Origin: Pseudomonas sp. 7SR1
Lineage (GTDB): Bacteria; Pseudomonadota; Gammaproteobacteria; Pseudomonadales; Pseudomonadaceae
Length of the DNA stretch: 64,000 bases
Assembly: GCF_900156465.1 (NCBI RefSeq)
Contig: NZ_LT707064.1
Location: forward strand, 2,946,501-3,010,500
Reading direction: 5' to 3'
This document shows positions 43,852 through 48,216 of the stretch, piece after piece. Below the pieces are notes generated by a model, which saw nothing but the letters and a program-made list of their open reading frames with translations, searched no databases and had not been told where the DNA came from. Position 1 is the first letter of the stretch; each line of letters starts with the position of its first letter. The position numbers were made by a program, and so were the translations under genes.

Positions 43852-43880
43852 CTTGTAATCGTCTTGTACGCCCTTATGTA
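43852..43880 (+). promoter_or_regulatory. heat-shock (sigma32-like) promoter of groESL
   Basis: CTTGTAA, a 13-base spacer and CCTTATGTA resemble the sigma32 elements CTTGAAA and CCCCATNT. The start would fall near 43887, leaving a leader of about 137 bases. No CIRCE palindrome was seen, as expected for gamma-proteobacteria. Confidence 0.5.
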
Positions 43881-44022
43881 TCGGTCACCGCAAGGTTCCC
43901 GGTGGCAACACTGGACAGACTTCCGCGGTTCGGCTGACGAACCGCATCCGGCTTTGCCGGCTTTTGTTAAACCCGCCGGGAATACACCGGCCGATGAAAA
44001 CCAAAATTAGGAGAGATCGACA

Positions 44023-44356: not shown

Positions 44357-46015
<1,659 letters not shown>

Positions 46016-46034
46016 GCCAGCCTTACCCCTGTAC

Positions 46035-46070
46035 TGAAAAACCCCGTCTGCGTCAGCAGGCGGGGTTTAA
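46035..46070 (+). terminator. groESL terminator, T-tract cut by IS insertion
   Basis: AAACCCCGTCTGC-GTCA-GCAGGCGGGGTTT forms a 12-bp stem. Only three T remain before AATGAG, while the bases after the far end of the IS (47422 on) read TTTTATTCG. This suggests that the T-run was split by the insertion. Confidence 0.82.
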
Positions 46071-46088
46071 TGAGATGGTCAGCCTGAC

Positions 46089-46128
46089 CGAGAAGCCCTG
46101 CAGGTTTACGCTTGCAGGGCTTTTCTCG
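46089..46128 (+). terminator. hairpin just inside the left end of the IS110-family element
   Basis: CGAGAAGCCCTGCA pairs with TGCAGGGCTTTTCTCG (14 bp, two bulged bases) around a 10-base loop. As RNA it would end in TTTTCTCG. It could terminate read-through from groEL and keep transposase expression low; its role in recombination cannot be excluded. Confidence 0.6.
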
Positions 46129-46148
46129 TTTTCGGCGGAGGATCTCTC

Positions 46149-47171
46149 ATGAACACGATGACGCTTCTCGGCATCGACATTGGTAAACACAGTTTCCATC
46201 TGCACGGCCAGGACGCCAAAGGTCATCAGGTTTTGCGCAAGAAAACCAGCCGCAGCCAATTGCTCGGCACATTGGCCCAACTGCCGGCCTGCACGGTGGT
46301 GATGGAGTCGTGTGGCGGTGCCCACTGGCTGGCTCGACAGGTTGAGGCATTGGGCCACGAGGTAAAACTGATTGCCCCGCAATACGTTAAGCCGTTCGTC
46401 AAAGGCAACAAAAACGACTTCATTGATGCCGAAGCGATTTGCGAGGCGGCGAGCCGCCCCGCGATGCGCTTCTGCTCGATTAAAACCGCAGAGCAACAAA
46501 CGCTTTCAGCTTTGCATCGTGTCCGAGATTCCTTGATTGGCCATCGCACCGTCGCGACCAATCAGATTCATGGTTTTTTGCTGGAATTCGGGATCAGCCT
46601 GCCCATTGGCGCAACGGCGTTGAACCGCGTGCCAGCGCTGCTGGACGATCCACAACATCCGGTTCCATTGCGCCTAAAGAGCGTGTTGATGCGTCTTCAT
46701 CGTCAAATCCAACAGCTGAATGATGAAATCAAGGACATCGAGTCCGACCTGAAACAGCAGTTGAAAGAAGACGATGCCGGAAATCGTTTGCAGAGTATTC
46801 CTGGCATCGGCCCAATCACCGCCAGTGCGGTATTGGCGGATGTGGGCGATGCGTCGAACTATCGAAGTGGACGCGATTTTGCCGCTTCGCTGGGGCTGGT
46901 GCCGAGGCAGTATTCGACGGGTGGGAAGACGGTGCTTCTGGGGATCAGCAAGCGTGGCGACAAGCACATCCGCCAATTGCTGGTACAGGGCGCGCGATCC
47001 GTTATTCAGCATATCGATAAGCGAGAGGACGCCTTGGGGCCTTGGGTTCGAGAGCTACTGACGCGTCGCCACTCCAATGTCGTCGCGTGTGCGCTAGCAA
47101 ACAAACTGGCGCGAATCGTGTGGGCGGTACTGGCCAAAGGCGGCCAGTACGACCCACATCCGAACGCTTGA
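46149..47171 (+). CDS. IS110-family transposase (DEDD recombinase)
   Basis: 340 residues. The N-terminal RuvC-like DEDD domain has GIDIGKHSFHLHG (D), VVMESCGG (E) and NDFIDAEAICEAA (D, D). The C-terminal transposase_20 domain shows IPGIGPITASAVLADVGD with the catalytic Ser and GLVPRQYSTGGKTVLLGISKRG. SD GGAGG, six bases before the ATG. Appears intact. In this family the protein is guided by an RNA from the element. Confidence 0.96.
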   Translation: MNTMTLLGIDIGKHSFHLHGQDAKGHQVLRKKTSRSQLLGTLAQLPACTVVMESCGGAHWLARQVEALGHEVKLIAPQYVKPFVKGNKNDFIDAEAICEAASRPAMRFCSIKTAEQQTLSALHRVRDSLIGHRTVATNQIHGFLLEFGISLPIGATALNRVPALLDDPQHPVPLRLKSVLMRLHRQIQQLNDEIKDIESDLKQQLKEDDAGNRLQSIPGIGPITASAVLADVGDASNYRSGRDFAASLGLVPRQYSTGGKTVLLGISKRGDKHIRQLLVQGARSVIQHIDKREDALGPWVRELLTRRHSNVVACALANKLARIVWAVLAKGGQYDPHPNA

Positions 47172-47421
47172 ATGCACAGCGTTACCACCGGCTTTTGCGA
47201 CGTCACTGACTGATGACAGTAAACGGCAAACGGCCCGACTGAGAACCTGGCAATAAAATCAGCTTTAGAAGCTGAGGGTTTTTTCAGGACAGTCGGGAGC
47301 GGCTACTCATCGAGGGCCGAGCGTTGTTGCAGCAACGCTCACAACGAGCCCGGATACATTAGCGCAAGCCAGCTTTACCGAAAACAGCCCATGAGGTTGC
47401 AGGAGAAGGGCTGACCATACA
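47172..47421 (+). ncRNA. candidate seekRNA/bridge RNA of the IS110-family element
   Basis: The noncoding 3' end folds readily. CCCGACTG (47234-47241) pairs with CAGTCGGG (47290-47297); inside it AACC (47244-47247) pairs with GGTT (47277-47280), enclosing TCAGCTT-TAG-AAGCTGA (47259-47275). A second hairpin GAGCGTTG-TTGCAG-CAACGCTC lies at 47319-47340. IS1111-group elements encode their guide RNA here, downstream of the transposase. The folding is seen; transcription and guide function are inferred. Confidence 0.5.
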
Positions 47422-47472
47422 TTTTATTCGCTTCAAAAATGTTAGCTCGAAATGGCGGTGTGGCTATCCCGT

Positions 47473-48216
47473 TCAGGCATTGGCGGGACGCGCCTCGGCT
47501 ACCGACTCATTTGTGGAAGCTGGCCGGTACAGGATGTAGTAATAACATCCCAGGCAAATCAGCCAGCAGAACACCGCCGTCCACACATTGTGGGAAAAGA
47601 AGTGTGCTCCCTGCATCATCCGACCGACAGAAAACACCGTGCCCAGGGCGAAGGCCAATACCAGCGTCTGGCGGGCGAGGCGCGGGCGACGGTCGCGCAG
47701 GGCGAAGAACAGCGCAAACAAGGTGAAGCCGGTCGCCGCATGGCCGCCGGGCCAGCATCGGCCAGGCTTGTCGGTGGCAGGGCGAGGACTCAGCAGTTCA
47801 CTGTAGGCTTCGCTGCCGCCAAATTCCTTCAGGCTCCAGGGACATTGCACCGCCGTCACGGCTTTCATCGGGGTAACGAAAGAAGTCGCCAGGGCCAGGG
47901 ATAAGACCAGGCAGCCCATCTCGCGTTTGAAGGGTTTGAGTCGGGCGACGAAAAACGTGCCGATGAAACCGAGGATCGCCAGCACGGAAAAACCGATGAC
48001 CATCTGTTTGGCCCGGTCATGCAGGATGTCTTCCAGAAAAAAACTGTGCCGGCCGATGAAACCACCACCGGCCGGGTCGTAGAACAGCCTGGCCAGCTCC
48101 ATGTCCACGGTCGTCGCCTCCAGTAGCACCAGAATCAGGGCAACCACGGCGGGCACGCCCAGGGCGATCCGGAAATTCAAGGGTCTGGAAGCGGGACGGA
48201 TGGCTGTGTGGACCAT
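47473..48216 (-). CDS. PAP2-family phosphatase, inner membrane
   Basis: 247 residues from the ATG at 48216, chosen because GAAGGT lies eight bases upstream; an ATG at 48243 has no SD. Six membrane helices and the acid-phosphatase motifs KAVTAVQCPW, CWPGGHAATGF and GRMMQGAHFFSHNVW. Related enzymes act on undecaprenyl pyrophosphate, phosphatidylglycerophosphate or lipid A. Divergent from colR, so possibly part of the envelope module controlled by ColRS. Confidence 0.88.
   Translation of the reverse strand: MVHTAIRPASRPLNFRIALGVPAVVALILVLLEATTVDMELARLFYDPAGGGFIGRHSFFLEDILHDRAKQMVIGFSVLAILGFIGTFFVARLKPFKREMGCLVLSLALATSFVTPMKAVTAVQCPWSLKEFGGSEAYSELLSPRPATDKPGRCWPGGHAATGFTLFALFFALRDRRPRLARQTLVLAFALGTVFSVGRMMQGAHFFSHNVWTAVFCWLICLGCYYYILYRPASTNESVAEARPANA

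Follow-up and report, generated by a model that had tools for sequence, protein, structure and literature searches.

We consider it very likely that the Pseudomonas sp. 7SR1 genome carries an intact IS1111-group element (IS110 family) whose 3' noncoding segment encodes an RNA that guides insertion between the stem and the T-tract of intrinsic terminators. The copy examined here interrupts the groEL terminator and lies within a 64,000-nucleotide stretch of DNA that was analyzed as a whole (hereafter "the window"), to which coordinates refer unless otherwise noted. In the mechanism we propose, the 3' segment of the element would yield a guide RNA whose first internal loop recognizes, by pairing to both strands, the target sequence GGG(T/C)-T-tract-A-T. 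The 3' arm and T-tract of an intrinsic terminator are spelled in this way. A second RNA loop would pair with the two joined element ends, and the RNA-bound DEDD recombinase would insert the element in one orientation with no bases duplicated.

Sequence comparisons reveal the ends of the element, its empty site, a conserved predicted RNA fold, guide matches that co-change with their partners, and repeated insertion into apparent terminators. Transcription of the segment, RNA binding and catalysis are presumed to proceed as in the tested relatives ISEc11, ISKpn4, ISPa11 and IS621. The features of the element and its site are as follows.

46041..46067, +, groEL intrinsic terminator stem (ACCCCGTCTGC/GCAGGCGGGGT) and first T residues; left half-target
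46068..47421, +, whole IS1111-group element, IS110 family, 1354 bp (from copies, empty sites and ends)
46068..46074, +, left 7-bp extension TAATGAG, the left donor sequence (predicted to pair with the donor guide)
46075..46084, +, left subterminal inverted repeat ATGGTCAGCC, 10 bp
46090..46125, +, left-end hairpin with T-rich tail, terminator-like, 5' of the transposase start (pattern scan, 16 pairs)
46149..47171, +, IS110-family DEDD recombinase, 340 aa (profile matches, alignment to proteins of solved structure, motifs)
47194..47403, +, core of the predicted guide (seek/bridge) RNA, with closing stem TTTGCGAC (47194-47201)/GTTGCAGG (47396-47403) (alignment, covariation)
47212..47311, +, helix GATGA (47212-47216)/TCATC (47307-47311), overlapping the left donor guide
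47234..47297, +, target-binding loop, made up of stem CCCGACTG/CAGTCGGG, an internal loop that holds the two target guides, and an inner hairpin
47250..47259, +, guide GCAATAAAAT, predicted to pair with the right half-target on its top strand (sequence matches)
47275..47284, +, guide AGGGTTTTTT, top-strand sense of the left half-target (pairs with the bottom strand)
47306..47310, +, left donor guide CTCAT, predicted to pair with ATGAG in the left end
47319..47340, +, hairpin within the donor-binding loop (aligned core pairs covary)
47354..47361, +, right donor guide ATACATTA, same sense as ATACA of the right end (five letters agree in 50 of 51 elements)
47409..47418, +, right subterminal inverted repeat GGCTGACCAT, 10 bp
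47419..47421, +, right 3-bp extension ACA
47422..47428, +, right half-target TTTTATT, the displaced remainder of the T-tract (flanks, empty sites)

Ends, copies and empty site of the element

The host genome (6.09 Mb, one contig) contains three identical copies of the element with different flanks, and each copy has a GC-rich hairpin ending in GGGTT on its left and TTTTATT or TTTATT on its right. In the window, the insertion separates the stem of the groEL terminator from most of its T-tract. The hairpin of this terminator scores 15.0 (shuffle p 0.003), and the terminator is intact in relatives; once split, it is no longer called by the pattern scan. The region 3' of groEL could be read in six relatives, four of which carry an unoccupied terminator, GGGGTTTTTTATT, that equals the left flank GGGGTT joined to the right flank TTTTATT of the window. 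In the other two relatives (L088 and L090), the terminator is spelled differently, GGGGCTTTTTTT. Because the joined flanks reproduce the empty site, the element is delimited at 46068 and 47421, exactly where a sequence-only reading of this DNA had placed an IS1111-type element. No target duplication is present, as the flanks sum to the empty site; since the junction lies inside a T run, the assignment of one T to element or target is ambiguous while the total number of T residues is fixed.

The ends have the layout of the IS1111 group, in which subterminal inverted repeats are bordered by extensions of 7 bp on the left and 3 bp on the right. Noncoding DNA amounts to 250 bases 3' of the transposase stop, as the sequence-only reading had reported, versus 81 bases 5' of the start. 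When we searched for a pattern of 36 letters with three or fewer mismatches, matches were obtained in 8 of 398 genomes. Two loci, L098 (G246) and L099 (G087), are deletion derivatives that keep the left part and the donor-loop end and have lost most of the transposase gene.

A DEDD recombinase with a possible threonine nucleophile

The recombinase carries the domains PF01548 (E 2.8e-19) and PF02371 (E 9e-25) and matches the NF033542 profile, "IS110 family RNA-guided transposase", with an E value of 5.4e-110. Its C-terminal part is related to proteins of solved structure, namely IS621 (PDB 8wt6, E 1.5e-11) and ISCro4 (9t56, E 1.3e-12). From their positions, we take the motifs GIDIG, VMES, NDFID and STG (at 8, 51, 89 and 256) to contribute the DEDD residues, and in a weak alignment both Asp residues of NDFID lie opposite Asp residues of ISCro4. 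The GL-P----S(T)G motif of the IS1111 group is present as GLVPRQYSTG (residues 249-258; window 46894-46925). Because Thr257 of this motif aligns with the Ser of the ISCro4 sequence ESG, and because 65 of 83 loci contain the STG triplet (14 others have no readable motif and four have a different one), the nucleophile of this lineage may be threonine.

A conserved RNA fold downstream of the transposase gene

The segment from 47172 to 47425 is predicted to fold with an energy of -87.7 kcal/mol (z -3.44), and none of 200 shuffled sequences did as well. For comparative analysis we aligned 30 elements with less than about 93% identity in the noncoding segment, leaving out L059 and L079. The RNAalifold consensus comprises 41 pairs, 17 of which have changes on both sides. 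Standard pairs occupy 95.6% of the 1225 cells of this alignment, versus 31-44% when partners are slid by one to three columns, and 156 cells are double-changed, versus 9-35 in slid and 50.2 in shuffled controls. Pairs with double changes average 13.3 in shuffled alignments, with 1 of 500 as high as the 17 observed. Among the five measures used, only the number of further pair types (48 versus 44.5 shuffled, with 41 of 500 shuffles as high) was not distinct.

Both the nested stem at 47234-47297 and the hairpin at 47319-47340 had been drawn in the sequence-only reading just as we find them, and the covariation among homologs to which it had looked for support is found: changes on both sides affect eight of nine aligned pairs in the target-loop stem, and two of four and four of four pairs in the donor-loop stems. 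The GATGA/TCATC helix is paired in 99.3% of cells and is nearly invariant, and for this reason displays little covariation. Its TCATC strand (47307-47311) overlaps the left donor guide, and the RNA may therefore cover this guide with GATGA (47212-47216) until donor DNA displaces it.

At the Rfam gathering score, the sole match in the window is RF01721 near groES, a Pseudomon-groES RNA (88.6 bits, 43878-43991) upstream of that gene. We discarded as chance five sub-threshold Rfam matches between 45900 and 47600, four of which are at or beside the groEL terminator and left-end hairpin; the fifth coincides with the target loop but is on the minus strand. A sigma-70 scan of the same interval, 45900-47600, found no promoter.

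RNA loops that match flanks and ends

The 5' side of the target loop, GCAATAAAAT, is the reverse complement of ATTTTATTGC, and the 3' side is AGGGTTTTTT. The complement of the top strand therefore comes first in the RNA and the match to the bottom strand second, which is also the guide order of IS1111 seekRNAs in the passages of PMC11187229 consulted. We examined whether such matches recur among relatives, beginning with 83 loci. Twenty-nine were dropped for a truncated gene or for want of a left or right end recognized by our end patterns, as were L004 (the copy already listed as L001), L038 (inserted at the site of L007) and L047 (left flank missing). In the remaining 51 elements, including the three host copies, we read 41 different guide pairs; the guides of seven elements were read solely by hand, and hand readings replaced two from the regex.

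Two kinds of comparison tie these guides to the DNA that surrounds each element. When noncoding segments were scanned for the best window against the left flank, or against the reverse complement of the right flank, with no use made of guide positions, the best window fell at the predicted guide in 48 of 51 elements for the left flank (3.2 expected; misses L007, L013 and L023) and likewise in 48 of 51 for the right (3.1 expected; misses L007, L012 and L036). Guide scores against an element's own flanks also exceeded all 20000 permutations, with all elements or with one per unique guide, although the permutations ignore kinship and related elements are not independent. The same holds for the 24 unique guides that lack GGG, and for regex-read guides when the seven hand-read ones are omitted. 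In the permutation test over all elements, the right flank of L042 was wrong; the best-window and donor comparisons used its corrected flank.

Within the close clade, which we define by about 90% protein identity or more, L034, L036 and L049 have GGGCTTTTT guides and GGGCT flanks, and the remaining loci have GGGTTTTT(T) guides and GGGTT flanks. In this co-change of guide and flank, what appears to be natural reprogramming is visible. Two related lineages share the same RNA plan. One of them (L011, L012, L014 and L015) occupies an intergenic Pseudomonas repeat, GGGGCAA..GCC|TTTGCTTACTTT, that its own guides match; the other (L020, L024, L026 and L031) occupies a GGTAGCC|TTTT site that recurs from genome to genome and agrees with its guide TTAGCCTTTT.

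The donor loop tracks the element ends in a similar manner. The right end reads ATACA in 25 elements and ATAGA in another 25, and these five letters recur in the RNA of every one of the 50; the exception is L064, with an end of ATAAA and an RNA of ATAGA. Left ends and donor guides co-change in the combinations TAATGAGAT/TCTCATC, TAATGAAAT/TTTCATC and TAATTATAT/ATATCATC, with a mean pairing run of just 5.2, a comparison in which the script anchor misplaced the guide in L020 and L031. The sequence-only reading had proposed a candidate seek/bridge RNA 3' of an IS1111-type transposase, with loops to be compared with target and donor DNA. This proposal gains support from the covariation and from loops that match both flanks (target loop) and both ends (donor loop), and that co-vary with them across relatives.

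Intrinsic terminators as a proposed target class

The letters of the guides spell an intrinsic terminator, GGGTTTTTTATT. All three host copies reside between a putative terminator stem and its T-tract, as do 10 of the 11 close-clade loci that were scored; a site is called hairpin-positive here if a score of at least 8 is reached directly before the T-tract (L079 scores 7.0). Such hairpins precede the T-tract at 20 of 25 elements with GGG(T/C)T guides, versus 3 of 26 with other guides (Fisher p 8e-7). For reference, the same score is reached at 375 of 1779 GGG sites in the window that lack a following TTT. Hairpin-positive sites occur in Pseudomonas and in records named Stutzerimonas, Atopomonas, Pelomonas, Thalassotalea, Aestuariirhabdus and Vibrio. 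The sequence-only reading, which had proposed to compare the loops with the groEL terminator side, missed that the target appears to be the class of intrinsic terminators rather than groEL in particular.

The sequence GGGTTTTTT occurs at 78 sites in the host genome (three of which are the elements' own guides), versus 17 for its mirror, and 18 of the 30 sites examined have a hairpin. Because the 20 of 25 hairpins at GGG-guide sites are not a significant excess over these 18 of 30 (Fisher p 0.15), the choice of terminators may follow from the guide sequence alone. Among the same 30 sites, seven have AT after the T run, in keeping with the right guide, and all seven have a hairpin as judged by eye.

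The RNA-guided mechanism of IS1111 elements is already known, as passages of PMC11187229 and PMC11208160 describe. In the literature searched, which included few subscription papers and left ISfinder, supplementary target logos and bioRxiv outside, we encountered no report of terminator targeting by the IS110/IS1111 family, and PMC11208160 does not contain the word terminator. The intrinsic terminator would therefore be a new target class for these RNA-guided recombinases. In addition, the 41 natural guide pairs with their targets are a resource from which the pairing rules of IS1111 guides could be learned.

A terminator-like left end that can stand alone

The sequence-only reading described the structure of the element well but missed the terminator-like hairpin at its left end. 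Among 32 left ends, 28 have a stem of at least nine pairs at the same place and 19 have at least six T residues within 12 bases at the stem end, counts for which no null was computed. Terminator-like sites in the region number three, versus 2.0 +- 1.5 in shuffles, and so are not in excess. A consensus fold of left-end alignment A2 gave no pairs, probably because alignment gaps break the stem, and so does not count in favor of the hairpin. With less certainty than for the guide RNA, we suggest that the left-end hairpin restores the termination broken by insertion, which would make terminators a tolerated niche for the element.

Left ends that lack a right end follow terminator-like stems at nine of 31 places inspected by eye, in nine Pseudomonas genomes (L096, at G203:C1:1610300-1611300, and L097, L100, L101, L103, L121, L122, L123 and L126). 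The 31 places had been selected on account of short or partial DNA matches, and the number of solo left ends is a lower bound. In genome G203, comparison with two relatives whose terminators are empty shows the solo left end to be an exact 53-bp insert that runs from TAATGAG to GCAGGGC. As a guess, the recombinase made this insert by using GCAGGGC-TTTT as a half-target; slippage in T runs would give the same 53-bp product. Terminator-like hairpins that resemble the left-end one and lack the TAATGAG end are found at L104, L105, L109, L124, L125, L127, L128, L129, L131, L132 and L133. They may be remnants of greater age or else terminators unrelated to the element.

From the solo left ends, it seems that elements of this kind may give rise to new terminators. 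Our broadest reading, which we hold tentatively and at somewhat less than even chances, is that an RNA-guided IS1111 lineage of Gamma- and Betaproteobacteria has adopted terminators as its target class and splits the host terminator while bringing its own in the left end. Upon loss of the element, this 53-bp end could stay behind as an added terminator, perhaps via the GCAGGGC-TTTT half-target. If this is true, then terminators would be spread through genomes by an RNA-guided transposon. Terminators are abundant and located behind genes, and a parasite that reads the terminator class and carries its own hairpin would be harm-avoiding, in parallel to group IIC introns.

Alternative explanations

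The stems downstream of the gene might serve only to terminate or process the transposase mRNA, or might form a sponge RNA comparable to Ssr9 of ISPpu9, with the loop matches as a by-product. The inner hairpin together with GGGTTTTTT (47259-47275) is itself called terminator-like, and ISPpu9 produces a sense sRNA 3' of its transposase gene that its authors read as an antisense-RNA sponge (PMC8450116, in part). However, a terminator would not track two unrelated outside sequences, whereas each of the two guides agrees with its flank in 48 of 51 elements, non-terminator flanks among them; as a full account, this explanation is refuted by the flank permutations, the donor co-change and the best-window scan. 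We therefore judge it very improbable, although a terminator or sponge role beside guiding is possible. Also quite improbable, in our estimation, is that the recombinase reads the structure of the terminator hairpin and the guide adds little. Nearly all sites of the close clade are hairpins (10 of 11 scored), and group IIC introns do insert after the stem-loops of terminators or attC sites (PMC7923331, in part). Yet relatives that share the RNA architecture but differ in their guides are inserted at guide-matching sites that mostly lack hairpins (3 of 26 have one), and hairpins at GGG-guide sites do not clearly exceed the genomic GGGTTTTTT background (18 of 30, p 0.15).

We are far less decided about the left-end hairpin, for which there is a substantial chance, if short of an even one, that it acts within the 5' UTR to limit transposase translation and is not a replacement terminator. 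The hairpin is directly 5' of the GGAGG-ATG start, ISPpu9 is reported to be under the control of its 5'-UTR structure (in passages of PMC8450116), and Vibrio-type left ends (L051, L053, L056 and L058) have stems without a T run. Against this stand the 19 of 32 left ends in which the T-rich stretch follows the stem, and the persistence at terminators of solo left ends that lack the gene.

Comparison with known systems

Systems already described are compared here as represented in the consulted parts of the reports cited. The closest are the IS1111 seekRNA elements ISEc11, ISKpn4, ISPst6 and ISPa11 (Siddiquee et al. 2024, PMC11187229), which likewise have a noncoding RNA downstream of the gene and subterminal repeats extended by 7 bp and 3 bp, and which share the absence of target duplication, the guide order and the GL-P----S/TG motif. 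Those elements target a linear site, attC or REP, whereas the guide examined here spells an intrinsic terminator. IS621 and its bridge RNA (Durrant et al. 2024, PMC11208160; Hiraizumi et al. 2024, PMC11208158) involve the same recombinase family and likewise a target loop and a donor loop with two guides each, but the RNA is at the other element end and the guide order is opposite. Unlike the recombinases of IS621 and ISCro4, the protein described here has Thr at the position aligned with the catalytic Ser.

Other Pseudomonas elements of the IS110 family, ISPpu9, ISPpu10 and ISPa11 (PMC1525189, PMC8450116), similarly exploit abundant intergenic palindromes as safe targets, although these are REP sequences and not terminators. 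Finally, group IIC introns (PMC7923331) resemble the element in that they insert just after the stem of intrinsic terminators, and of attC sites, but they are ribozyme retroelements with unrelated machinery and chemistry.
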